Origin: Candidatus Nitrosopumilus sp.
GTDB taxonomy: Archaea; Thermoproteota; Nitrososphaeria; Nitrososphaerales; Nitrosopumilaceae
Assembly: GCA_028279625.1 (NCBI GenBank)
Contig: JANQNM010000035.1
Coordinates: 1-44,607, forward strand
Direction: 5' to 3'
DNA: 44,607 nt
The position numbers and the translations under genes were made by a program. Positions 31,439 through 44,522 of the stretch are shown in pieces; position 1 is the stretch's first letter; each line of letters begins with the position of its first letter. A model generated the notes under the pieces. It was not told where the DNA came from. It saw nothing but the letters and a program-made list of their open reading frames with translations, and made no database searches.

Positions 31439-31979
31439 AGAATTTTACATTCAAGACACAGTCACGGTAGCAAAAAAGCTGCTTGGAAAAAGAATCATCA
31501 GAAAAATAGGCAGGCAGGAAATTTCTGGAATAATATCTGAAACAGAGGCATACAGGCACAAAGATGATCCTGCAAGTCATGCATTTAGAAAAATTACGGA
31601 TAGAAACAAGGCAATGTTTGGGGAGGTTGGAAGAGCATATGTCTATTTCACATATGGAATGTATTACTGCTTTAATGTAGTTGCACGACATCCAAAAATT
31701 GATGCAGGTGCAGTTCTAATTCGAGGTATCAGACCTGAAAAAGGAATTGAAAAGATGCAAGAAAATAGAAAAATTTCTGACTTGAAAAATCTAACAAATG
31801 GACCTGCAAAACTTACACAGGCATTAGAAATTACCAAAGAGCATTACGGAATAGATTTAACAAAAAATTCCAAATTATTTATCACAGAAGGAATCAAGCC
31901 AAAAAAAATTACTGCATCTCCAAGAATAGGAATCAAAGAAGCAACAGAAAAGATGTGGAATTTTAAAATTAAAATTTAA
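31398..31979 (+). CDS. 3-methyladenine DNA glycosylase (AAG/MPG family); start may be later than the ORF call
   Basis: VAKKLLGKRIIRK...ISETEAYRHKDDPASHAF; GRAYVYFTYGMYYCFNVV. Confidence 0.93.
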   Translation: MTKRFQQILNTLPREFYIQDTVTVAKKLLGKRIIRKIGRQEISGIISETEAYRHKDDPASHAFRKITDRNKAMFGEVGRAYVYFTYGMYYCFNVVARHPKIDAGAVLIRGIRPEKGIEKMQENRKISDLKNLTNGPAKLTQALEITKEHYGIDLTKNSKLFITEGIKPKKITASPRIGIKEATEKMWNFKIKI

Positions 31980-32608
31980 TCTTTGTTGTTTTCATCCAGA
32001 GTCCAGGGTGCAAAACGACCAAGTATTCTTTGCCAATCTAATCTTAAAAGTAAAATTACAACTGCTGTCATCATTGCACCAAACACAATTATTCCAATGT
32101 AAACTGGTGTTGCATCATCAATATTTTCTAGCAGTGGTTCAACTAAAGACAATCCAAGATAGTGTGAAACAAACACAATCGTATAACTAAGAACAATTTT
32201 TCCAGTAAGTGTAGCTATAAAGAATCTTTTAGGATTGTATTTTGCAAGACCAAGTGGCACATAAACTAAATCATCAGGAATTGGCGTTGCAGCTGCAAAA
32301 AATGCAGCACCTGCACCATATCTTTTTACTAATCTTTCAAAAGGACGCATTCTTTTTCGAGTTTTTTCATTAATTATTTTTCTTCCACCATAACTCACAT
32401 AGAAAATAATTTGTTTTGCAATAGTTGCAGTTATTGCAGATAAGAGAGCCAATATATGAAGATCAAATTGATCACCTACTGCCATTGTTGCAAGCAACAA
32501 GAATCCGGGTAAAGGAACAAAGGGCACTAGAGAGCCTATGAAATTTACCAATCCTAGACTTAGATAACCCACTTCAGGTGCAAATGGAAACAGGTCAACA
32601 AAATCCAC
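31976..32608 (-). CDS. DedA/VTT-domain membrane protein
   Basis: Multiple TM helices; GYLSLGLVNFIGSLVPFVPLPGFLLL...FFAAATPIPDDLVYVPLGLAKY. Confidence 0.82.
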   Translation of the reverse strand: MDFVDLFPFAPEVGYLSLGLVNFIGSLVPFVPLPGFLLLATMAVGDQFDLHILALLSAITATIAKQIIFYVSYGGRKIINEKTRKRMRPFERLVKRYGAGAAFFAAATPIPDDLVYVPLGLAKYNPKRFFIATLTGKIVLSYTIVFVSHYLGLSLVEPLLENIDDATPVYIGIIVFGAMMTAVVILLLRLDWQRILGRFAPWTLDENNKD

Positions 32609-32711
32609 AATCCATACTATTTGTAGGCACTATTTAATGAAAACTTCAGGATTAAAACCAAAATACCAAGAAATTACACATAATCGATTAATAGACTACA
32701 AAATTGTGCGT

Positions 32712-33077
32712 TCAGGCAGACAATTCTTGAATTAGTTTTTGTTGCAGAGGAATAATTTGAGATATGACATCTGTAATATTGCAATCAGAGTCAATACTCA
32801 CTAAAAGAAGATCATCATTAGTCAATGGAAAAGTTACTCTAAACAAGTCATCATACAATGCTAGAGCATAACGAGGATAGCCTAGTTTGTGCTTCAATAA
32901 TTTTCTTGAACCCCATCGAATAACAGAGCCTCGAATGCTAGTAACAGATTCTAACTCAGTTAGTAAAGGAGCAGTTCCTTCTCTCATACAACTAGTCAAT
33001 TCAGAGTGATGATAAATTCCAGCAAAACGAATTTTTGAATCTGATTTTAAAATTTCCTGACACGCGTCTTTAAGCAT
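32712..33077 (-). CDS. DUF6659-like protein
   Basis: ILKSDSKIRFAGIYHHSELTSCMREG pattern shared with 1384 and 42787 ORFs. Confidence 0.75.
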   Translation of the reverse strand: MLKDACQEILKSDSKIRFAGIYHHSELTSCMREGTAPLLTELESVTSIRGSVIRWGSRKLLKHKLGYPRYALALYDDLFRVTFPLTNDDLLLVSIDSDCNITDVISQIIPLQQKLIQELSA

Positions 33078-33160
33078 TAGATAATTAAGACATTATAGTA
33101 TTAAAGAGATATCACACATTATGAAGCGATGCATGACCAAATTGGAACAAATTCTATAAT

Positions 33161-33661
33161 TTAAGAGTCATTTGGATCTAAACCAGAAAGAATGTTTTCT
33201 CTTACATTTTTCAAATGATTTTTTTGTTTTTCATTTAATTCAGCTTTTTGAAGCAACATATCTACATGAACTATAAGTGACATCAGGGGAGTTTCTAATT
33301 CAGTTTCAGATAATTTTAGAGCATTTGAAAGTTGAGATGAACGTTCTTTTTCTATTTCTTCTAGTAGAATTTTTTCTTGTAATCTTTCATTGTTTTTAAA
33401 AGAATCATCTTCAATATATTGATGAACATTTTTTGCAAGTAATTCATTCATTTCTTCAGCTAACATTGCCAATTGTGATTTTTCTCTTTTCTGAAAGTCT
33501 TGATGTTTTTTACGAAGTTCTTTGAAGTTTACTATCGTGTTTTCATTAATCATTTGCTTGAATTGGTTTGAACGAAGTTTGTTTAGCTTTTTTTGATTTT
33601 CAATCATATGTGCCTGAAATCTCTTGCTTAATTCTTCCAGAGATTCGTAATCGCTATTCAT
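33161..33661 (-). CDS. coiled-coil protein with degenerate HisKA-like C-terminus lacking the H-box His
   Basis: LQEKILLEEIEKERSS...LSETELETPLMSLIVHVDMLLQKAELNEKQKNHLKNVRENI; starts within the stop of 33658-33963. Confidence 0.75.
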   Translation of the reverse strand: MNSDYESLEELSKRFQAHMIENQKKLNKLRSNQFKQMINENTIVNFKELRKKHQDFQKREKSQLAMLAEEMNELLAKNVHQYIEDDSFKNNERLQEKILLEEIEKERSSQLSNALKLSETELETPLMSLIVHVDMLLQKAELNEKQKNHLKNVRENILSGLDPNDS

Positions 33662-33963
33662 TTTTTGTCCTCCAAAACTTCTAATGTTTTAAAAATTGCA
33701 GTAATCAAAACATCAATATTTTTTTTAACAGATTCAAGTTTTTGACGTTGCATGGAGTTTATCTTGCCAAATTTTTCATCTAATGTCATGTCTACATATG
33801 ACTTGATTATTACCAAAGGAGTTCTAAATTCGTGACTCATTGAATTGAGAATCTCTTTATTTTCATAATCTTTTTCTTCTAATGATTGATTGATTTCTTC
33901 TAAAATGATTTTTTCTTGTTCTAGTTCTTTTATAGTATGAGATTTGGATTTTGTAATACTCAT
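33658..33963 (-). CDS. HisKA-only phosphoacceptor-like protein without ATPase domain
   Basis: LNSMSHEFRTPLVIIKSYVDMTLDEKFGKINSMQRQKLESVKKNIDVL; 101 aa total. Confidence 0.85.
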   Translation of the reverse strand: MSITKSKSHTIKELEQEKIILEEINQSLEEKDYENKEILNSMSHEFRTPLVIIKSYVDMTLDEKFGKINSMQRQKLESVKKNIDVLITAIFKTLEVLEDKK

Positions 33964-36230
33964 TCTTGTACAATCTCCGCTTTAGATGTAATTTGTAATG
34001 GGAGTTCAAAATAAAATGTAGTTCCTTCACTATTACTTTCAAACCAAATTTTACCACCCAGTCCTTCAACAATTCCTTTGCAGATAACTAATCCCAATCC
34101 AGTTCCGCCATGTTTTCGTGTTTGTGCAGTATCAACTTGATAGAATTTTTTGAAAATGTTAGGTTGTTTTTCTTTTGGAATTCCAATTCCATTGTCTTTA
34201 ACAAAAAATCTAAAGTTGTTTTCTTGCGGAATAATTCCGATCTCAATTATTCCGTTATTTTCAGGAATGAAATCTACTGCATTTCTAATCAAATTGTAAA
34301 AAATCTGTTGCAGTCTCTGTTCATCTGTGTTTACTGAAACATCATCTACAGAATTTGCAAAAAATTGGACATTTTTTTCTTTCAATAAAGGTTGAACGTT
34401 TTTCTTCAAATTTTCCAAAAATCGGGATAAGTTGAAATCTTTTTTGCTGAAAGACAGTTGCCCCATGTCTAATTTCTGAGAATCAAGAATATCGCCTATC
34501 AGACGTTCCAAATTAGAGGCGTTTGAATCAATTGTGTCAATACATTCAAGTTGTTCAGAATTTAGTTCACCTAAACCACTATCTTTTAGCATTTCACAGT
34601 AGCCTCGAATTGGTGTAAGAGGAGTTTTTAGTTCGTGTGTGACCATGGATGCAAACTCATTTTTCAATTGATCAATTCTTCGTACTTCTTTTAATGCATC
34701 CATTAATTTTGATTCATACAGTTTTTGTCTGGTAATATCAGTTCTAACTGCAATATACTGAAACGGTTTTCCGTCTTTTCCTAAAAATGGAACAATTGTT
34801 GTTTTTACCCAAAACTCGTCACCGTTTTTTGCTCTGTTTTTGATATCACCATTCCAAATCTTTCCGGATGAAACTGTTTTCCACATTGTAGCATAGAATT
34901 GTGGCGGATGAAATCCAGATTTTAAAATTCTGTGATTTTGACCAATTAGTTCTTTATCAGAGTATTTTGTAATTTGTCTAAATTTGTCATTAACATAAAG
35001 AATTGTTCCATCAGCATCTGTGATTGAGACGTTTGCTGATTCGTCAAGGGATTTTTTAAAGTTGGCACTTTCTTCAAGTTTTACTTCTAGTTCTTTTTGG
35101 TAAAAGTTTTTGATTTTATCATTAGTTTGGAAGAATTCTTGAAAAGTTTGAAAAGATTTTGTCAGGTCTGCAACCTCGTCATTTCCTTTGATTTTGATTT
35201 CTGTATCATATTTTCCAGAATTAAATTCTTTGAAGGCATCTTGTAGTTTCAAGAGAGGTTTCTGGATCCCTTTAGAGACTAGCCTCGAAATTAAAACAAT
35301 TGATCCAGTAGTAAATAGAAAAATCAATACAAATGTTAGAATTGTTGTATTAGTAGTGCTAAAAACTTCACTTTGATCAATTTTTGCAACCATTCCCCAA
35401 CCCATATGTGTTGGACCCCAACATGCAAGAATTGGCTCGCTTCTATAATCAACAGTTGAACCACAATTACTGATTCCTTGTACAGATTCTCTTATTGGAA
35501 GAGCTCGTGATTCATCGAATTGTATAATTCTAGATAATGCTGCTTCAGGATCATATTTGAGAGGGTGAATAAATTCAGCTCCATTTTCTAGTTTTTGACC
35601 AACTAGAACTTCTCCAGTATCTCCAATAGAAGAATGATCTACAATTAGTGAATAAACATATGACAGATTTACTTCAAAAATCATCAAAAACGTAACACCG
35701 TCAACAGTTTTGGGTAAAACTAAGAACAACGCATAATTTCCTTTTTCATCTTGGTACACATCAGTATAATGGAATTTTGAAAGATCAGATGAAAAATAGG
35801 AGTTTACAGCAAAATCTACATCATCAAAATTATCACGATGGACTTCAGATTCTTCTATTTCAACGAGAACATTCCCAGAAGAATCTGTGATAAGAATTTC
35901 ATTGATTGCAGGCTCAGATTGTAGGAAAAAAACAAGATTTTGCTCAACATTATTTCCTAAAGAACCCATGGAAATTTTATCACTAGTTGACAAAAACCAT
36001 TCATCTGAAAAAATTGAATCTATATCAGACTCTAAATTAGAAAAAAGAAATGTTAATCTGTCATTTTTTAAATCAAAGGCAGTTTGTAATTTCAAAAATT
36101 CAGTGTCACGTAAATCGTTTTGATATTGTTCAATAAACAAAAACATGAAAATAGTCAATGGGATTAAAGATAATCCTAACATTGGAATAATAATTTTTGA
36201 TTGAATCCTTAAAGAAAAAATATTTTTCAT
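33960..36230 (-). CDS. membrane sensor histidine kinase (extracytoplasmic Cache-like domain, HAMP, PAS, HisKA, HATPase)
   Basis: MVTHELKTPLTPIRGYCEML, NLIRNAVDFIPEN, DNGIGIPKEKQ, GGTGLGLVICKGI; PAS NVSITDADGTILYVNDKF. Confidence 0.95.
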   Translation of the reverse strand: MKNIFSLRIQSKIIIPMLGLSLIPLTIFMFLFIEQYQNDLRDTEFLKLQTAFDLKNDRLTFLFSNLESDIDSIFSDEWFLSTSDKISMGSLGNNVEQNLVFFLQSEPAINEILITDSSGNVLVEIEESEVHRDNFDDVDFAVNSYFSSDLSKFHYTDVYQDEKGNYALFLVLPKTVDGVTFLMIFEVNLSYVYSLIVDHSSIGDTGEVLVGQKLENGAEFIHPLKYDPEAALSRIIQFDESRALPIRESVQGISNCGSTVDYRSEPILACWGPTHMGWGMVAKIDQSEVFSTTNTTILTFVLIFLFTTGSIVLISRLVSKGIQKPLLKLQDAFKEFNSGKYDTEIKIKGNDEVADLTKSFQTFQEFFQTNDKIKNFYQKELEVKLEESANFKKSLDESANVSITDADGTILYVNDKFRQITKYSDKELIGQNHRILKSGFHPPQFYATMWKTVSSGKIWNGDIKNRAKNGDEFWVKTTIVPFLGKDGKPFQYIAVRTDITRQKLYESKLMDALKEVRRIDQLKNEFASMVTHELKTPLTPIRGYCEMLKDSGLGELNSEQLECIDTIDSNASNLERLIGDILDSQKLDMGQLSFSKKDFNLSRFLENLKKNVQPLLKEKNVQFFANSVDDVSVNTDEQRLQQIFYNLIRNAVDFIPENNGIIEIGIIPQENNFRFFVKDNGIGIPKEKQPNIFKKFYQVDTAQTRKHGGTGLGLVICKGIVEGLGGKIWFESNSEGTTFYFELPLQITSKAEIVQE

Positions 36231-37495
36231 ATTTCACACACTACTTGACTTGATTCTCCTCCATCATACAGTAGTTGTATAGCATCAACATTACATTCTG
36301 AAATGTAAGGAAAGTTTGTTTCAATATTTGGGTACATAAGATCTTCTGGTGCAGTAGAGTGTGCTAAACCTAAAGCATGACCAAATTCATGTCTAACAAT
36401 TGTCTCAAATTCACTATTTGAAATAGAATCAACATCAAAGATGGTAATTCTTGACTTTAGAATTTGATTTTGAGATTCATCAGCAATACTGTTTGTCCAT
36501 CCACTAAATCCATCAGCATTTCTTTCATTTTTTAATTCTATAGTAATGTCTCCTTCTCCACCATTAGTGAGAACAAAATTGAACTGATTAGGAATGTACA
36601 AAGAAGTATCTTCTGAGGATGCAGCATTCAAAGCACCACTCCATCCAACATACATTGGAGAGACAGTACCTTTGGGTCCTTTGTGAAGTAATGAATTATC
36701 AATTTCAATTATTTCATTTGATAAGATGACTTTTTTGATAATTTCGACTTTTTCAGAGTCTATTGATTCTTGATTTAAAATATTAACATGGAGCAGGTCA
36801 CCCTCAACTAGCCTCCAAGAAAGGTAGGTATCAATTGTATCCCCACGTAGATTTTGAATAAGATAGCCTGATTTCATAGAGTCTGGATTTGAAACCATAT
36901 AATTTTCGCCCGTTACTGAGGTCATATAGAACGAGTATGGAGCAAGTACTCCAACAAGAAGAATTCCTGCAATTGCAGCAGAGACATATTTCTTTTTGAG
37001 ATTTTTGTTTTCTTTTGATTGATTATCAGAAAGTTCAGAAAGTAAAATTTTTTCTTGATTTGATTCTTTTGAAGATGAAATTTGATCATCTAATTGATTT
37101 TGCAAATTCTTGTTTGTCTTTTCTAGATTATGGATTTTATTTTCCATTTCATTTGTAGACTCAGTTAATAGAATTTTTTCTTGTTCTAATTCATTTATCA
37201 AATGTTTTTTTGTTTGAATGTTTTCTTGAAGTTGTTGTTTTACACTAGAAAGTTTTGAAATCTTATTTTCTAATTCAAAATTAATTTCGTCTAGAGTTAT
37301 TTTTTCTTGTTCGATTTCTTTTGATTCTTTTGATTGGTTTTGAATTTTTTTAACAAGTTGGGTATTTGATTTTTCTAATTCTTTTATTTCAGAATAAAGT
37401 TGTTCTTCAGTTTTTTTTAGATTGATTTCTTTTTCCTCAAAATAACGTAATTGTTCATCTATCTCTGCTTGTTTTTCTTCAGAATAGGATTTCAT
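36227..37495 (-). CDS. N-terminal coiled coil, single TM, extracytoplasmic matrixin-like zinc metallopeptidase
   Basis: ~165-aa coiled coil, TM YVSAAIAGILLVGVLAPYSFYM, HEFGHALGLAHS (HExxHxxGxxH) and Met-turn DLMYPN. Confidence 0.88.
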   Translation of the reverse strand: MKSYSEEKQAEIDEQLRYFEEKEINLKKTEEQLYSEIKELEKSNTQLVKKIQNQSKESKEIEQEKITLDEINFELENKISKLSSVKQQLQENIQTKKHLINELEQEKILLTESTNEMENKIHNLEKTNKNLQNQLDDQISSSKESNQEKILLSELSDNQSKENKNLKKKYVSAAIAGILLVGVLAPYSFYMTSVTGENYMVSNPDSMKSGYLIQNLRGDTIDTYLSWRLVEGDLLHVNILNQESIDSEKVEIIKKVILSNEIIEIDNSLLHKGPKGTVSPMYVGWSGALNAASSEDTSLYIPNQFNFVLTNGGEGDITIELKNERNADGFSGWTNSIADESQNQILKSRITIFDVDSISNSEFETIVRHEFGHALGLAHSTAPEDLMYPNIETNFPYISECNVDAIQLLYDGGESSQVVCEI

Positions 37496-37521
37496 TAGAT
37501 ATCATCTAAAATTCCAATACC

Positions 37522-37887
37522 TCAGTTTGATAGAATTCCTAGTAATTCACTTAACTGAACTGGTTTTTTTAGGAATGAAACAACTCCTTCTTTTCTTGTA
37601 AGCGATTCTATTTCCTCATTTGGGATTGATGATGCAGTTAAAACAACAATTTTGTTTTGTTTTAGCAAGTCTTCTTTTTCTAGAGATTCAATAACATTCA
37701 TGCCACCAAAATCTGGCATTGACATGTCCAAAATTACATAATCAAAAGACTGATTTTTGATAAGATTTAGACCATTAACTCCATTATTAGATACAGTGCA
37801 ATCATAGCCTTTTAGTTTAAGATATCTTTCAAACATTCCAGTAATATCGACATTATCATCGATTACCAACACCCTCATACCATTCAT
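37522..37887 (-). CDS. receiver domain response regulator (start may be the internal MRVLVIDDN)
   Basis: VLVIDDNVD, YVILDMSMPDFGG, LKKPV. Confidence 0.93.
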   Translation of the reverse strand: MNGMRVLVIDDNVDITGMFERYLKLKGYDCTVSNNGVNGLNLIKNQSFDYVILDMSMPDFGGMNVIESLEKEDLLKQNKIVVLTASSIPNEEIESLTRKEGVVSFLKKPVQLSELLGILSN

Positions 37888-37943
37888 TACAACGTCATAC
37901 TTTGTAATAAATAACCAGTGTGTAACAAAGATTACTTACACAC
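37886..37943. promoter_or_regulatory. two inverted repeats in the divergent promoter region
   Basis: ATTACAA (37886-37892)/TTGTAAT (37902-37908) and GTGTGTAA (37918-37925)/TTACACAC (37936-37943). Confidence 0.55.
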
Positions 37944-37973
37944 TATAATATTTTATGAGCATACACGAATATT

Positions 37974-38114
37974 ATGGATTTGGGCATAGAGAAGTGTATG
38001 TATTGCAATCATGCAAAAAGTTTGCATATTAATGGTTCATGTACCTTTATTCTAAAAGTAGAAAATGATTATTCAAAGCAATTATGCACATGCAATCAGT
38101 GTAAAGTCATCTAA
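37974..38114 (+). CDS. zinc-ribbon mini-protein (46 aa)
   Basis: MDLGIEKCMYCNHAKSLHINGSCTFILKVENDYSKQLCTCNQCKVI; TATA-like ataatatttta upstream. Confidence 0.65.
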   Translation: MDLGIEKCMYCNHAKSLHINGSCTFILKVENDYSKQLCTCNQCKVI

Positions 38115-38627
38115 ATTTCAGGTAAAACGGGGATTGAGAATTTTACATAATCAGAATTAGATTTTATTGTTCTAATTGGTATTTTTGAAGTGTTCATTAA
38201 ATCTGAAATTGCAGCACTAAAGAAATTTCCCCATTTAGAATTAATTTGGTGTAAAAGTGTACAGTGCAAAAAATCATCTTCATTATTGACTATGAAATTT
38301 TGTCCTTGTGACAAAGACATTCTTTCTAATTCTACAATAATACTATCTAAAGAAATTTCATTATGTGAAAAAAGAATTTGATTTTGAATATCATTTGACA
38401 AAATTTTTGCCAAACTTTTTATCGTATCTTCATTTGATTTTGACAAAAGTGTTCGAACAAATTTTGGACTACACCATAAATAATTTGATGATTGATAAAA
38501 ATCATAATTAGAATTATGCATCGAAAGAATATTTCCAACAAAATTATTCAAATTGGTACCATTGTGTTTTGCTTTTTTATTTAAGTCATCTAAAAGTTTT
38601 TTTTCAATTCTAAATCCTTTAACTATT
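38111..38627 (-). CDS. RHH-type N-terminus plus sensor-like C-terminal domain; ORF-track TTG start (38551) cuts into the RHH domain
   Basis: In-frame upstream extension reads (A)KIVKGFRIEKKLLDDLNKKAKHNGTNLNNFVGNIL; no ATG/GTG/TTG upstream of 38551 before a TGA. Confidence 0.6.
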
Positions 38628-38665
38628 TTAGCCAGATATATCAGTCCCTGATAAATTCATTCTGA

Positions 38666-38718
38666 GTTGTAATACGTTGTAATAATATTTAACATTCAAA
38701 AGTATTACAATGTAATAC
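38666..38718. promoter_or_regulatory. operator-like repeat cluster (GTTGTAATAC, GTTGTAATAA, palindrome GTATTAC-AAT-GTAATAC)
   Basis: Direct repeats 38666-38675 and 38676-38685; perfect 7-bp inverted repeat 38702-38718 flanking a TATA-like minus-strand element. Confidence 0.6.
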
Positions 38719-38732
38719 ATAATTTGGAAAAA

Positions 38733-39092
38733 TCAAACTAATGCTTGTACCAGTTGAGGAAAACCAACTTTCTTGGATAACAGTGCAGATGCGCCCTTGC
38801 TCATGATCAAATTTTCATCTTCTTTTGAGAAGGGTACAGCAGAATAAACAACGATCTTTTCAGGTTTTTCTGGAACAGCATCTTTTATTTCATTTAGGAC
38901 ATCAATGCCAGAAGCTTTAGGCATGGACATGTCCAAGATTACACGATCATAATGATTGCTCTTTATTTCATCTATTCCACGTTTTCCATCATAAACACTT
39001 GTTGGATAATATCCTTGAAGTTTTAGATATTGTTCTAACACATTACATGTTTCATGATCATCGTCTATTATGAGGATCTTCATATCATACAT
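38733..39092 (-). CDS. receiver domain response regulator (start may be the internal MKILIIDDD)
   Basis: ILIIDDDHE, RVILDMSMPKASG; overlaps the preceding kinase stop by 8 nt. Confidence 0.93.
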   Translation of the reverse strand: MYDMKILIIDDDHETCNVLEQYLKLQGYYPTSVYDGKRGIDEIKSNHYDRVILDMSMPKASGIDVLNEIKDAVPEKPEKIVVYSAVPFSKEDENLIMSKGASALLSKKVGFPQLVQALV

Positions 39093-41382
39093 TACTCCTC
39101 AGTGAAAAATAAAAAGTTGTCCCTTTACCTTCCTCACTCATGACTCTAATATTACCATCCATCCCTTTTACAAGTTTCTGACATATTGCAAGCCCAAGAC
39201 CCAATCCACCATGAGTTCTGGTATGAGTAGAGTCTAATTGGTAGAATTTATCAAAAATTCTTTCTTGTTTTTCTTTAGAAATTCCAATTCCATTGTCTTT
39301 TACAAAAAATTCAACCATGCCATCTTTGGTATTGGCACCAACTTCTATCATACCATTTTCAGGAGGAACAAATTCTGTTGCATTATTTATTAAGTTAGTA
39401 AGAACTTCATGCAATGCATTCTCATCACAGAAAACTTTTGGGATGTCTTTAATTGAATTTACAAACTGGATATTTTTTTGTTTCATCAGGGAATTATATG
39501 ATTGGAAAATATCATTGATTAAATTAGTTGCATTAACATCACTCATCGAGAATTGATATTTGTTCAAGTCAAGTTTTTGTGCTAAGAGAATCTTGTCAAT
39601 CAGAACATCTAGTCTTTTTGAATTGGAAACTATAGATTCAACAAATTTTCTTTGATCATCAGTTAATTGATCTGCAAAATTTTTATCAAGAAGTATTTCA
39701 CAATTCCCTTTAATTGGAATTAATGGTGTTCTTAATTCATGTGAGACAATTGAGAGGAATTCATCTTTTTGTTTGTTAAGATGTTTCACCTGTTGCATTT
39801 CTTGCTCAACATTTTTCCTTTCTTCTTGTGCTTCAAGTGTTTTATAAAAATCAGAAATGTCTTGAATCAAAGTATTGCTTCCGATAAGTTTTCCATTTGT
39901 ATCATATAGATTGTTTACACTAATTAGGCCTGGAAATTTTTCACCATCTTTTGTTTTAAACCAAATTTCAGTATCAAAGACATTTCCACTATTTTTCCAA
40001 TCTTCAAATACAGACTTCATATATTCAGTATGTTCTGGGCTCACATGTTCAAAAATGGATGTGCCAACAATCTCATTTTTGGGAATACCAAATCTTTTTG
40101 CATATGACTCATTGCAGTCAAGAATAATTCCTTCAGTGTTAACAGTTCTGTGTAAGGCAGGGGATTTTTCATATAAATTTCGATATTTTGATTCGGCTTG
40201 TGCCTGTAATGATCGTGATTCCTTTAGAGATGAAACCATAGAACTAAAGGAATCGGACAAATCATGGATTTCGCCTTTTCCTTTTGTGTCTATTACTACA
40301 TCCAAGTTGCCCTCAGTGACTTTGTGTGTTACGTCTTTGAGTTTCTTTATTGGAGTTACCAGATTAGATGTAAAGTATAATGAAATAGAAACAATCAATG
40401 AAAATAAGACTCCAATTGAAGAGTACAGAAATATTTGAAGTTGAATAATGTCTATGAAGGCTTCATTTTTATTTATTTCAACAACATAAAGCATATCTGT
40501 TCCTTCAATTGGGAAAATAGAACCGATTACTTCATCACCATTGTAATTTGAATAACCAATCAAATTTACATTAGTTCCTTTATCATTGTAATTCTGAATA
40601 ATATCAATTATTTCTCCAGATAATGGATTGCTTGCAAGCAACTTTAATTCAGGTTTTTGCAATTCAGTTTCTAAAAATTTTGGCGTAGCAACAAAATAAT
40701 TTTCATCATTTACAACATACGAATCAACTGATCTATAATCTAATTCTGCGAAAGAAAAAGAAGATGGAGAAGAAAGATCTACTCGGGCTGTAAGGACACC
40801 AATAATTCCCACATCACCAATAATAGGTGAGGAAATCAACATGGTGGGCAAATTATTTTCATAGACTCCAAATTTATTTTTGAGACTTTTGTTTGCAAGA
40901 AATACATCACTAATTCCAATTTTTCCACTTAATGCATTTTGAAAGTGTGATTCATTTTTTTGTGAAACATTTGGAAGAGAGATATCAGATGTAAAAAATA
41001 CATTTCCATCAGTATCACAAATTAAAATTTCTAGAAAATTAGGATTTTTTTCTAATTCACTTCCAATCTTTGTTTCTAAATTGAAATTAGCAAAAAAATG
41101 TTCTGGTGAATTTTCATCTGAGTTTATCATATGATTAGTCTCAGAAATTAGCTGTTTATCAGATGAAATACCTTCAAGCTGACGTACATGTTCAAAAATC
41201 CATTCTGAATAACCATTTGCTGCATTGGTAGTCGATAAAACCAGTTCATTTTCTAATTTTGAAGTATTTGAGTTAAGATTGTCAAAAATCAATATTCCTC
41301 CAAGAACAGATGTAGGAACGATTCCAAGGCATAATGCTAATGCTAAGATCTTAAAATGGTAACTAGAAAAATTCAGAATCAT
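39085..41382 (-). CDS. membrane sensor histidine kinase (extracytoplasmic Cache-like domain, HAMP, PAS, HisKA, HATPase)
   Basis: IVSHELRTPLIPIKGNCEILL, NLINNATEFVPPE, DNGIGISKEKQ, GGLGLGLAICQKL. Confidence 0.95.
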   Translation of the reverse strand: MILNFSSYHFKILALALCLGIVPTSVLGGILIFDNLNSNTSKLENELVLSTTNAANGYSEWIFEHVRQLEGISSDKQLISETNHMINSDENSPEHFFANFNLETKIGSELEKNPNFLEILICDTDGNVFFTSDISLPNVSQKNESHFQNALSGKIGISDVFLANKSLKNKFGVYENNLPTMLISSPIIGDVGIIGVLTARVDLSSPSSFSFAELDYRSVDSYVVNDENYFVATPKFLETELQKPELKLLASNPLSGEIIDIIQNYNDKGTNVNLIGYSNYNGDEVIGSIFPIEGTDMLYVVEINKNEAFIDIIQLQIFLYSSIGVLFSLIVSISLYFTSNLVTPIKKLKDVTHKVTEGNLDVVIDTKGKGEIHDLSDSFSSMVSSLKESRSLQAQAESKYRNLYEKSPALHRTVNTEGIILDCNESYAKRFGIPKNEIVGTSIFEHVSPEHTEYMKSVFEDWKNSGNVFDTEIWFKTKDGEKFPGLISVNNLYDTNGKLIGSNTLIQDISDFYKTLEAQEERKNVEQEMQQVKHLNKQKDEFLSIVSHELRTPLIPIKGNCEILLDKNFADQLTDDQRKFVESIVSNSKRLDVLIDKILLAQKLDLNKYQFSMSDVNATNLINDIFQSYNSLMKQKNIQFVNSIKDIPKVFCDENALHEVLTNLINNATEFVPPENGMIEVGANTKDGMVEFFVKDNGIGISKEKQERIFDKFYQLDSTHTRTHGGLGLGLAICQKLVKGMDGNIRVMSEEGKGTTFYFSLRSNV

Positions 41383-41388
41383 AAAACA

Positions 41389-42705
41389 TCAAACTCCAGG
41401 ATTAGACCAGGATTCTCCCCAATCATTGTAGAGAATGTCGATGAATGAATCCCAATCTTCTGGGGATTTGTATTTAGGATATGTAATAGGAATTATTGGT
41501 TCTTCAGTGCTTGATACAATCAAAAATTGTCCATTTGGAAGAATTTCTCCAACTCTTACAGTCTTCAAAAGATGTTGATTTTGAGGATCTACGCCAATTG
41601 AACCGCCAGGACCTGAAAATGTAGAGCCTTTTAGATTTTGACGAACTTTATCAAGTTCAGTTGTTCCTGATTTATCAACAGCTTTTGCATAAAGAAACAC
41701 ACCATTGTAGGCTGCTTCCATTGGATCAGAGGTAGTTCTGTGTTGTCCGAATTTTTGTTTAAAAGAATCTACAAAATCTAAGTTATTTTTTGATTGAATG
41801 CTTTGAAAATAATTCCACACAGCATAATCTCCAATCATATTTTCATTCCCAAAAGACAAAATTTCGTTTTCACTTACGCTCAGGGAGATAGTTGGGACAT
41901 CATCAGGAAAGATTCCACTTTCTCTTAGATTCTTAAAGAATGCAAGATTACTATCTCCGTTAATGGAATTGATAATCACATCAGGTTGTTTATCTTTAAT
42001 GTCTTGGATAATTTCATCAAAATTTGTATCTCCAAGCAATCTATAATTTTCCCCAACAACAGTTCCACCTAATTCATGTATTCGATACTTTATGATTTCA
42101 TTTACACTTCTAGGAAATACATAGTCTGAACCAACAAGATAGAAATTTGTTCCAATATTTTCAAAAGCCCAATTTATAGCAGGAATCGCTTGTTGGTTGG
42201 GTGCAGCACCAGTATAAACAATATTTTTTGATTGCTCTAAGCCCTCATACTGAACTGGATAAAATAATAGATGATCATATGTTTCAAAAATAGGTTTCAT
42301 AGTTTTACGACTAGCAGAAGTCCATCCACCAAAAACGACATCAACTTCTTCTTCCTCAATTAGTCTTTGTGCTTCTGATGCAAATGTTGGCCAATCAGAT
42401 TTTCCATCAGCAATCACATATTCAACTTGTCTGTTCAAGATTCCACCTCTTTGATTAAGTTGGTCAATTGCCAGAATTGTAGAATCAACAACGGGAGATT
42501 CACTTGATGCCATTGTTCCAGTTAAGGAGTGAAGAATACCAATTTTTACAGGATTTTTATCATCAATCTCTAGTGGAATAGTAACATACTCATCACTAGG
42601 TTGTCCATATCGAGTAACAGAAACTTCCAGTTCATACGAATACATCAAAGCAAATAGAACAATTATTCCAGCAGATAGAAGAGGTAGAAAAATTCTTTTT
42701 TCCAC
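41389..42705 (-). CDS. UrtA/FmdD-like urea/short-amide ABC-type substrate-binding protein
   Basis: KIGILHSLTGTMASSESPVVDSTILAIDQLNQRGGI; FGGWTSASRKTMKPIFETYDHLLFYPVQYEGLEQSKNIVYTGAAPNQQAIPA; GSDYVFPRS. Confidence 0.9.
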   Translation of the reverse strand: MEKRIFLPLLSAGIIVLFALMYSYELEVSVTRYGQPSDEYVTIPLEIDDKNPVKIGILHSLTGTMASSESPVVDSTILAIDQLNQRGGILNRQVEYVIADGKSDWPTFASEAQRLIEEEEVDVVFGGWTSASRKTMKPIFETYDHLLFYPVQYEGLEQSKNIVYTGAAPNQQAIPAINWAFENIGTNFYLVGSDYVFPRSVNEIIKYRIHELGGTVVGENYRLLGDTNFDEIIQDIKDKQPDVIINSINGDSNLAFFKNLRESGIFPDDVPTISLSVSENEILSFGNENMIGDYAVWNYFQSIQSKNNLDFVDSFKQKFGQHRTTSDPMEAAYNGVFLYAKAVDKSGTTELDKVRQNLKGSTFSGPGGSIGVDPQNQHLLKTVRVGEILPNGQFLIVSSTEEPIIPITYPKYKSPEDWDSFIDILYNDWGESWSNPGV

Positions 42706-42786
42706 AATGCCGTAATGGTTCTAAAATAATTAAGGATAAACTGCAACAATAATGATTAAAATATCATCTTTTTACAACCCAATCAG

Positions 42787-43164
42787 ATGACAAAAAAAGA
42801 CTTTCAGAAAATTTGTGATGCAATAGCATCAATTAGTCCATACATTAGATTTGTAGGCGTAATAGGCGAGAGTGGAGAGCTCTTAGCACATAGAAGAAGG
42901 CAGGATCTTATTCCTCTTTTAAATGCAAAAAATACCCAGTATCAGTTTTCACATATTGCAATAAAGACAGATCTTGAAGGATTTTTTGATAAAAATCTAG
43001 GAGAAATAGAATTTGTATGGGAAGAAAGAAAGAAGGTTCAGACAATTTCATTTGCAATCAAAAAATCAAGAGTATGGATATCAATTGATAAAAAAGTTAT
43101 CAGATCTGAGATGTTAAGAATAATTGATGCATGTTTGCCAATTGTAAAAAAATTCTCGAAATAG
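42787..43164 (+). CDS. DUF6659-like protein
   Basis: IASISPYIRFVGVIGESGELLAHRRRQDLIPLL; similar pattern to 1384 and 32712 ORFs. Confidence 0.75.
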   Translation: MTKKDFQKICDAIASISPYIRFVGVIGESGELLAHRRRQDLIPLLNAKNTQYQFSHIAIKTDLEGFFDKNLGEIEFVWEERKKVQTISFAIKKSRVWISIDKKVIRSEMLRIIDACLPIVKKFSK

Positions 43165-43165
43165 T

Positions 43166-43261
43166 TTGAAGTGTCCTTACTGTGAAATTGATTTGGATTC
43201 ATTGAGCATGACTGATGGTCTAAAACACATCTTAGAACACAAAAAAGAGAATCAGGATTAA
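43166..43261 (+). CDS. C2H2 zinc-finger mini-protein (31 aa, TTG start)
   Basis: LKCPYCEIDLDSLSMTDGLKHILEHKKENQD (CxxC...HxxxxH). Confidence 0.5.
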   Translation: MKCPYCEIDLDSLSMTDGLKHILEHKKENQD

Positions 43262-43280
43262 CTTTTTTCTAGTAGAATAT

Positions 43281-43586
43281 ATGAAAAACAATATGCAAGA
43301 AGAAGATGAAATTCAAAAGCTAATTGATGAAATAAGTTTTAGAAAATCAAACTCAAAAGACTATAACAAAATGAATGTTGAACAAATTAGCAAAGAGCTT
43401 CAAGACATTATGAAATTTGAACAAGAGTCATTTAAGAAAATTGAAGAATTTGAAAAGCAACAACAAAACGCAGATTTAGTAGCTTATGCAAAAATGATTT
43501 GCAGAAATACAACACAAAGAGAGATTAAACAGATTCAAGGAATTTATTTAGAAAAAATCGACAAACAATATCTTAATTCAAAATAA
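43281..43586 (+). CDS. hypothetical charged coiled-coil protein (101 aa)
   Basis: ORF track. Confidence 0.65.
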   Translation: MKNNMQEEDEIQKLIDEISFRKSNSKDYNKMNVEQISKELQDIMKFEQESFKKIEEFEKQQQNADLVAYAKMICRNTTQREIKQIQGIYLEKIDKQYLNSK

Positions 43587-44522
43587 TCATTCATCTTCAT
43601 ATAACCAACACTGCACATAACCTGATTCAGTTTTAATTTTAGGAGGGAGTTGTTTACATTTTTCAATTGCTAATGGACATCTATCAATAAATCGACATTG
43701 AGTAGGTGCATCAAGTAAGCTTGGTGGAATTCCTTTGATGTATTTTGGAGTTTGTCCATTCAATGTGGGAATTGATTCTAAAAGTCCTTTAGTGTAAGGA
43801 TGTTTTGGGTTTTTGTAGATTTCTTGGGATGAACCAAATTCAACGATTTGTCCACCATACATAATTCCAATTTTATCTGCAATCTCTGATAATACTGCCA
43901 AATCGTGCGTAATTAGCATAAATGACATACCATCTTTTTTGAGTTTTTTTAGCAAATTGATAATTTGAGCTTGAATCAATACATCAAGAGCTGTTGTAGG
44001 TTCATCAGCAATAACAAATTTGGGTTTTAGCAGTAATGCCATTGCAATGATTACACGTTGTTTCATTCCGCCACTAAGTTCATGAGGATATTTTTTCAAA
44101 ACATTAGAGTCAAGACTAACAGAATTGATTGCATCTAAAATTACTTGATTAGAATCGCCTGAAAATTTGTGTTGCTTTAATATTTCTAGAAATTGCTCTT
44201 CAATAGTAAAAACAGGATCCAATGAATTCATTGCACCTTGAAAAATCATTGAAATTTTTTTCCAACGATATTTTTCATCAAATTCAGATTCAGGCATATC
44301 TAAAAGAGATTTTTCTTCAAACAAAATTTCTCCAGTTGTCTTTCCACCGGATAGCATTCGAATGATAGATAATCCAAGTGTACTTTTTCCACAAGCGCTC
44401 TCACCTGCTATACCAATTGATTCACCATCATTTAGAACAAAGTCTGCATCTTCTACTGCATATACTGGACCTTTTGATGTAGAATATCTTGCAGATAAAC
44501 CGTTTACAGTTAGAAATGCCAT
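43587..44522 (-). CDS. oligopeptide/dipeptide ABC transporter ATP-binding protein (OppD/DppD-like)
   Basis: GESACGKSTLGLSIIRML Walker A, LSGGMKQRVIIAMAL signature, FVIADEPTTALDV Walker B, RCPLAIEKC C-terminal motif. Confidence 0.94.
   Translation of the reverse strand: MAFLTVNGLSARYSTSKGPVYAVEDADFVLNDGESIGIAGESACGKSTLGLSIIRMLSGGKTTGEILFEEKSLLDMPESEFDEKYRWKKISMIFQGAMNSLDPVFTIEEQFLEILKQHKFSGDSNQVILDAINSVSLDSNVLKKYPHELSGGMKQRVIIAMALLLKPKFVIADEPTTALDVLIQAQIINLLKKLKKDGMSFMLITHDLAVLSEIADKIGIMYGGQIVEFGSSQEIYKNPKHPYTKGLLESIPTLNGQTPKYIKGIPPSLLDAPTQCRFIDRCPLAIEKCKQLPPKIKTESGYVQCWLYEDE

Follow-up and report, generated by a model that had tools for sequence, protein, structure and literature searches.

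A membrane-anchored matrixin as a possible output of a two-component system in ammonia-oxidising archaea

Introduction

Why would a gene for a membrane protease stand between the genes for a receiver and a sensor histidine kinase, and in which direction would a signal pass? The question is raised by a locus in the window, the whole 44,607-nt stretch analysed here, which forms contig C22 in a draft genome of 1.47 Mb. An earlier note described the locus as a five-gene operon and suggested that either proteolysis serves as input to the kinase or the kinase controls the protease.

According to Galperin et al. (2018, PMC5847659), about 75% of the response regulators (RRs) of Thaumarchaeota are stand-alone receivers, and most of these have no conserved gene neighbourhood, leaving functions that "could not be inferred". 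The same survey describes archaeal proteins resembling histidine kinases (HKs) that have HisKA but no HATPase; they retain the conserved His and are proposed to be phosphate acceptors or RR phosphatases. Those proteins carry PAS/GAF sensors and occur mainly in Archaeoglobi and Methanomicrobia, and proteases are unmentioned in the text (PMC5847659). Matrixin genes were noted in a sponge-symbiont study only as protein-degrading enzymes (PMC6697440). In the open-access literature, we found no description of a matrixin combined with HisKA or a two-component system; the earlier note knew of no named system with this composition.

Organization of the locus

Five ORFs are packed on the minus strand. 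The most upstream gene (37522–37887) encodes a stand-alone receiver (REC) of 121 residues, with phospho-Asp54 and no output domain (Pfam Response_reg, 72 bits). It is separated by 26 nt from the gene for a membrane matrixin of 422 residues (36227–37495). A sensor HK of 756 residues (33960–36230), a HisKA-only protein of 101 residues (H1; 33658–33963), and a His-less HisKA-derived protein of 166 residues (H2; 33161–33661) follow. The last four genes overlap by ATGA at 36227–36230, 33960–33963, and 33658–33661, so that coordinates, strand, and overlaps all agree with the earlier note. Overlaps of 4 nt are commonplace in operons and, taken alone, do not establish the defined stoichiometry that the earlier note had suggested.

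The kinase comprises a TM helix, a dCache-like ectodomain, a second TM helix, HAMP, PAS, HisKA, and HATPase. Pfam recovers HAMP-PAS-HisKA-HATPase, whereas dCache stays below threshold (29.8 bits versus 45). H1 consists of a short coil and a DHp (dimerisation and histidine phosphotransfer) domain with phosphoacceptor His44 in the motif SHEFRTP; it lacks HATPase and matches Pfam HisKA with 35.8 bits, as the HisKA-only label implied. NCBIfam adds no specific name. A kinase with HisKA and HATPase and a receiver with its phosphorylation residues are encoded together, which qualifies the locus as a two-component system. Neither a DNA-binding response regulator nor a terminal Spo0A-type receiver is found in the operon by ORF and Pfam analysis.

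The operon lies between two core genes, VTT (31976–32608) and an ABC ATPase (43587–44522), which are direct neighbours in 18 of 20 further congeners examined, indicating that 32609–43586 (~11 kb, no strand assigned) is an accessory insert. The insert additionally holds a Peripla_BP_5 substrate-binding protein, a kinase, and a receiver (38733–42705). The exact five-gene order occurs nowhere else among the further loci inspected. The comparative loci thus reject the five genes as one conserved system; a gene order confined to this genome, as seen among these loci, is one of the outcomes that the earlier note had named as refuting its reading. The operon is part of a mosaic accessory insert.

Three congeners carry the order RR > HK > H2 without the protease and without H1, two of them between the same flanking genes and the third (L223) on a short contig. 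Compared with the window, their receivers are 69–74%, their kinase cores 63–69%, and their H2 proteins 52–54% identical, and their receivers are the closest kin of the window receiver. Their kinases have no dCache and PAS, which were lost or never present. As the next-nearest receivers and kinase cores are in protease operons (L045 and L089), loss of the protease from the three relatives is favoured, but on a biased sampling of outgroups.

Fold and topology of the protease

Peptidase_M10 matches residues 304–410 of the protease with 45.1 bits (cut-off 24), and the top PDB sequence match is MMP-20 (E 1e-9). An AlphaFold2 (AF2) model of the ectodomain, made from 39 input sequences, has a pLDDT of 90.6 and a pTM of 0.91. 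Nearly all of the PDB matches listed by Foldseek for this model are catalytic domains of matrix metalloproteinases (MMPs), and the top-ranking ones are all MMPs (probability 1.00, E ~1e-6). The TM score is ~0.6 when normalised by target but ~0.45 when normalised by query, indicating a matrixin ectodomain with additions of its own. Judged from sequence and model, the protease is a genuine matrixin with a predicted metzincin fold; the other refuting outcome named in the earlier note, absence of such a fold, does not hold.

The zinc-binding motif HEFGHALGLAH (residues 369–379; 36359–36391, minus strand) is followed by the Met-turn residue Met387. The pattern HExxHxxGxxH and the downstream Met are intact in 101 of 102 homologues, and the zinc-motif columns are invariant or almost so in alignment A2. 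The degree of conservation therefore suggests that catalysis is under selection.

Hydropathy peaks at residue 171, and a single TM helix is predicted at residues ~171–189 (36929–36985, minus strand). Five K/R residues are present in the 15 residues N-terminal to the helix and none in the 15 residues C-terminal to it. This positive-inside pattern positions the coiled coil (residues ~1–168) in the cytosol and the metzincin domain outside, in accordance with the topology proposed earlier.

The protease shares the metzincin fold, HExxHxxGxxH, and the Met-turn with the M10A matrixins of MEROPS, including animal membrane-type MMPs. Unlike most animal MMPs, it has no cysteine-switch pro-domain; its only Cys residues, Cys401 and Cys420, are both C-terminal to the active site. 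Bacterial matrixins such as karilysin also lack the cysteine switch, and the feature does not define M10 overall. No animal MMP is known to us to have a single TM helix with its N-terminal side, a coil or HisKA, in the cytosol.

Association of matrixins with receivers and kinases

Of 250 genomes from the taxonomic family of the window, 123 encode members of the ectodomain family, and single genomes have as many as ten. The named matches include Nitrosarchaeum, Nitrosopumilus, Ca. Nitrosotenuis, and Ca. Nitrosotalea, indicating that the family searched is Nitrosopumilaceae in the broad sense. Other families of the same order yield only distant matrixins (E 1e-10 to 1e-22). A distribution general to archaea is rejected, as high-scoring members are confined to the family of the window.

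To describe the neighbourhoods, ORFs in 100 regions around homologues were classed with HMMs made from these loci; these regions, picked for their matrixin scores, are not independent of one another phylogenetically. A receiver is encoded within three same-strand genes of 62 of 102 matrixins, directly upstream in 46 of those 62. A histidine kinase lies within the same distance of 41 matrixins, and both are present for 34. The window genome has 13 receiver genes in all, from which a chance rate of ~1% per neighbour follows. A search that used the receiver only gave 135 best matches, of which 46 are no more than 6 kb from a listed matrixin, versus 1.3 expected; about two thirds of these nearest receivers have no listed protease close by. 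The core association of receiver and kinase with the matrixin is real and family-wide.

Residues D10, D11, D54, T84, and K108 are conserved among protease-adjacent receivers. In a receiver tree biased by the choice of loci, one starred clade (n = 58) contains most of the single-domain receivers adjacent to a protease, with 50 of the 77 near-protease receivers.

The kinases of such operons can adjoin genes for substrate-binding proteins (NMT1-like, Peripla_BP_6). Extracellular nutrients may therefore be sensed.

HisKA–matrixin fusions

In 17 intact homologues of ~420–473 residues, HisKA, coiled coil, TM helix, and matrixin form a single chain, with an H-box in the N-terminal HisKA and without HATPase. 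An 18th fusion (L047, G040) is interrupted by an internal TGA. Pfam matches HisKA (35–46 bits) and M10 (36–45 bits) in the same chain, both above cut-off. An AF2 model of the full fusion, made from five sequences, has a pLDDT of 46.6, is unreliable, and was not used.

Fusion operons are mostly ordered HK > RR > fusion. At L037 and L040/L138, the order is HK > RR > HisKA-only > coil-TM-matrixin. When the L138 pair is aligned with the fused L137 protein, the HisKA-only protein covers residues 3–122 and the protease residues 129–460. The split form is therefore collinear with the fused one, and the operon order is also the same.

Of the 18 fused HisKAs, 17 retain the phosphoacceptor His, and among the HisKA-only proteins H2 alone lacks it. 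The single fused domain without it (L063, LNDELRNP) is accompanied by a His-positive HisKA-only gene in the same operon. Three HisKA-only proteins have N or K in place of the acidic residue at H+1, which is needed for autokinase activity of HisKA. At H+4, the residue required for the phosphatase activity of HisKA proteins (PMC3510030), all of these fused and HisKA-only domains carry T, S, or N.

In a HisKA tree, H1 of the window falls in one group with the matrixin-fused HisKA domains, with a support of 87/62 that is unstarred and based on few columns. The separate HisKAs are nested among the fused ones, and most operon kinases are kept apart. H1 of the window and those of L045 and L035 form a group with support of 100/97. 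The similarity of the H1 coil to the protease coil is matched in 1 of 1000 heptad-preserving shuffles, which suggests, weakly for low-complexity coils, that H1 pairs with the protease. H1-type proteins are not restricted to proteases; HisKA-only proteins are also found in HK-RR operons without one (L225 and L226).

H2 is a different case. It has no Pfam match, and its HisKA likeness is a weak stretch recovered by an iterated model (34.6 bits). The position of the His is Thr by hand alignment and a gap by MAFFT, and an H-box is likewise absent from its orthologues (48–54% identity in four genomes, plus one at 31%). The earlier description of H2 as His-less thus holds, and its likeness to HisKA is faint. 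The H2 coil does not exceed heptad-preserving shuffles in likeness to the protease coil (95 of 1000). As a member of the protease module, H2 is mostly rejected; it belongs to the RR-HK-H2 operons of the three relatives. An exception is G140 (L095), in which an H2 homologue is encoded ~0.5 kb upstream of a matrixin-HK pair. H2 may be a DHp-derived accessory or scaffold of the receiver–kinase pair.

Proposed mechanism and alternatives

The unit is the receiver, the membrane matrixin with or without its own HisKA, and the kinase, a variant of the two-component system with a predicted protease output; of the earlier reading, the link between membrane matrixin and two-component system stands and the five-gene unit does not. 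We give roughly even odds (about 0.5) to the following reading of the sequences as a whole. A two-component system with an extracytoplasmic, single-helix-anchored matrixin as its output recurs across Nitrosopumilaceae, and the window holds one variant of it. The sensor kinase would phosphorylate the stand-alone receiver, which would then pass the phosphate to the ATPase-less HisKA (DHp) or dock on it and be dephosphorylated; Spo0B-like phosphotransfer, dephosphorylation of the phosphorylated receiver, and simple docking are all compatible. The DHp would act from within the cytosolic stalk of the protease in the many relatives in which it is fused there, and in the window as the separate H1, which would pair with the stalk through the related coiled coil. 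A change in the DHp/coil bundle would pass through the single TM helix and turn surface proteolysis on or off, from inside to outside.

This inside-out model is supported by the fusions, the collinearity, the retained His and H+4 residues, the receiver residues, the gene association, and the intact zinc motif. It is weakened by the HisKA-only and RR-HK-H2 operons without a protease and by the fact that most nearest receivers are not near a protease. In addition, many protease operons have a receiver but no recognisable HisKA-only gene or fusion, indicating that the DHp cannot be the sole coupling. The more specific proposal, a phosphorelay that ends at a HisKA-bearing membrane metalloprotease instead of at DNA or the motility motor, is widespread in ammonia-oxidising archaea, and provides a target for one clade of stand-alone receivers, is made tentatively, as somewhat less likely than not.

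The signal could also run from outside to inside. Binding or cleavage of an external substrate would alter the TM helix and coil and thereby change the action of the attached HisKA on the receiver, whether by phosphatase activity or by phosphotransfer; alternatively, the protease would trim the kinase dCache. The output would then lie elsewhere in the cell. The usual role of a HisKA domain is to report the state of an ectodomain on the other side of the membrane, substrate-binding-protein genes beside such kinases suggest that extracellular nutrients may be sensed, and in the three relatives without the protease the kinase also has no dCache and PAS. However, this joint absence amounts to a single event, a dedicated sensor kinase is already part of the system, and the HisKA is N-terminal to the TM helix, the opposite of the arrangement in kinases. 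The zinc site, intact in 101 of 102 homologues, exceeds what a mere sensor would need. We consider this direction rather unlikely; of the two options in the earlier note, control of the protease looks likelier than the protease as input, because relatives fuse HisKA to the cytosolic side of the protease.

That the genes share an operon for joint production only, with other targets for the receiver and with the separate HisKA-only protein as receiver phosphatase, is unlikely. It would account for the receiver clade and HisKA-only proteins found without a protease and for the mosaic nature of the window operon, and archaea have both stand-alone RECs and HisKA-without-HATPase proteins with a proposed phosphatase role (PMC5847659), but co-expression alone hardly explains why many genomes have a His-positive HisKA physically fused to the protease. 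Gathering of unrelated signalling and protease genes at a hot insertion site, which would leave the five-gene order meaningless, is very improbable. In 18 of 20 congeners nothing is inserted at the site, and in others different genes are found there; nevertheless, receiver and matrixin are paired at many unlinked sites, far above chance, and fusions exist. Chance assembly is thereby largely refuted for the RR-matrixin-HisKA core and still applies to the inclusion of H2.

Relation to known systems

The front part of the proposed inside-out pathway is most like the Spo0 relay (KinA-Spo0F-Spo0B) and its output is like LapD-LapG, but it belongs to neither. The parts list of a Spo0-type relay (HK, stand-alone receiver, DHp protein with phosphoacceptor His) is present in the window with its receiver and H1, and in the fused forms; the order kinase, stand-alone receiver, and DHp-type protein is in both cases the same, here as read from genes alone. 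In the archaeal loci, the DHp is fused or linked to an extracytoplasmic matrixin, and no Spo0A-like downstream regulator is seen. Spo0B has a degenerate CA domain, whereas the archaeal HisKA-only and fused proteins have none. A membrane-bound DHp-type phosphotransfer protein exists in Paenibacillus (Spo0B-TM, PMC12826061).

In LapD-LapG (PMC3032545, PMC3032553), as proposed here, a cytosolic signal crosses the inner membrane to a protease outside. LapG, however, is a cysteine protease and a protein of its own, bound by a c-di-GMP receptor, whereas the archaeal protease is a zinc matrixin anchored in the membrane and would be signalled to through a phosphorelay.

The findings suggest that ammonia-oxidising archaea switch surface proteolysis by a two-component system. 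One clade of stand-alone receivers gains a recurrent, testable partner, a membrane matrixin that bears HisKA or is encoded with it. If the model is true, a phosphorelay directly controls extracellular protein cleavage in one of the most abundant archaeal groups, adding a new output class for two-component systems and a handle on surface remodelling or nutrient response.

Other members of this matrixin family combine a common scaffold with different regulators. dCache is fused to it at L151 and L099; a gene for a CBS-like protein is present at L148, and an RR with a NitrOD5-like domain at L157. Such swapping of regulators agrees with control of the protease by diverse cytosolic or sensory inputs.

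Insertion hotspot between two core genes

The insert of the window is bounded by two core genes, one for a VTT-domain protein and one for an ABC ATPase of the oligopeptide type, which are directly adjacent in 18 of the 20 congeners examined. In other congeners, the same site carries different cargo: G140 has a histidine kinase gene, G088 has three unrelated ORFs, and G089 and G135 have genes for a stand-alone receiver, a histidine kinase, and a His-less HisKA-derived protein. The interval 32609–43586 is an insertion hotspot.

Within this insert lies a second signalling cassette (38733–42705), in the order substrate-binding protein, dCache-PAS kinase, and stand-alone receiver. The substrate-binding protein is an amide/urea-type Peripla_BP_5 protein (492 bits, Pfam), and the composition of the cassette suggests small-amide or urea sensing. 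Between the two receiver genes is a 146-aa ORF with a TTG start (38111–38551), which has zero matches in Pfam and NCBIfam searches and only a weak match beyond the window.

Other architectures of the matrixin

A three-gene cassette is kept in many Nitrosopumilaceae (L148:3422–7785 and about 17 similar loci). It encodes an Ig-like surface protein (~780 aa, Big_1-like, two TM), a ~300-aa protein with a weak CBS-domain assignment, and a coil-TM-matrixin protein, in this order; the cassette could comprise a protease–substrate pair and a nucleotide-sensing regulator.

In L151:6888–8669 and L099:5305–7083, a dCache sensor, a second TM, and the matrixin are joined directly in one fusion, which has the build of a receptor-like protease and lacks a kinase part. 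In L104:12502–14442 and L208:6738–8642, matrixin ectodomains of the same family are joined to 8–9 TM helices predicted by simple hydropathy, a membrane part without an annotated membrane domain. The HisKA-TM-matrixin gene of G040 (L047:5866–7250) is broken by a TGA and is probably a pseudogene or an assembly error; unbroken copies are present in close relatives.

Related signalling genes

A soluble 304-aa kinase (L034:4556–5470) has two tandem HisKA domains N-terminal to a single HATPase. Its gene adjoins a receiver gene and is divergent from the closest homologue of the protease. Protease-free operons, in the order kinase, receiver, and HisKA-only protein, occur at L225:6230–8769 and L226:1875–3837 and may represent Spo0B-like three-part relays in archaea. 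The former adjoins a gene for an NMT1-like substrate-binding protein.
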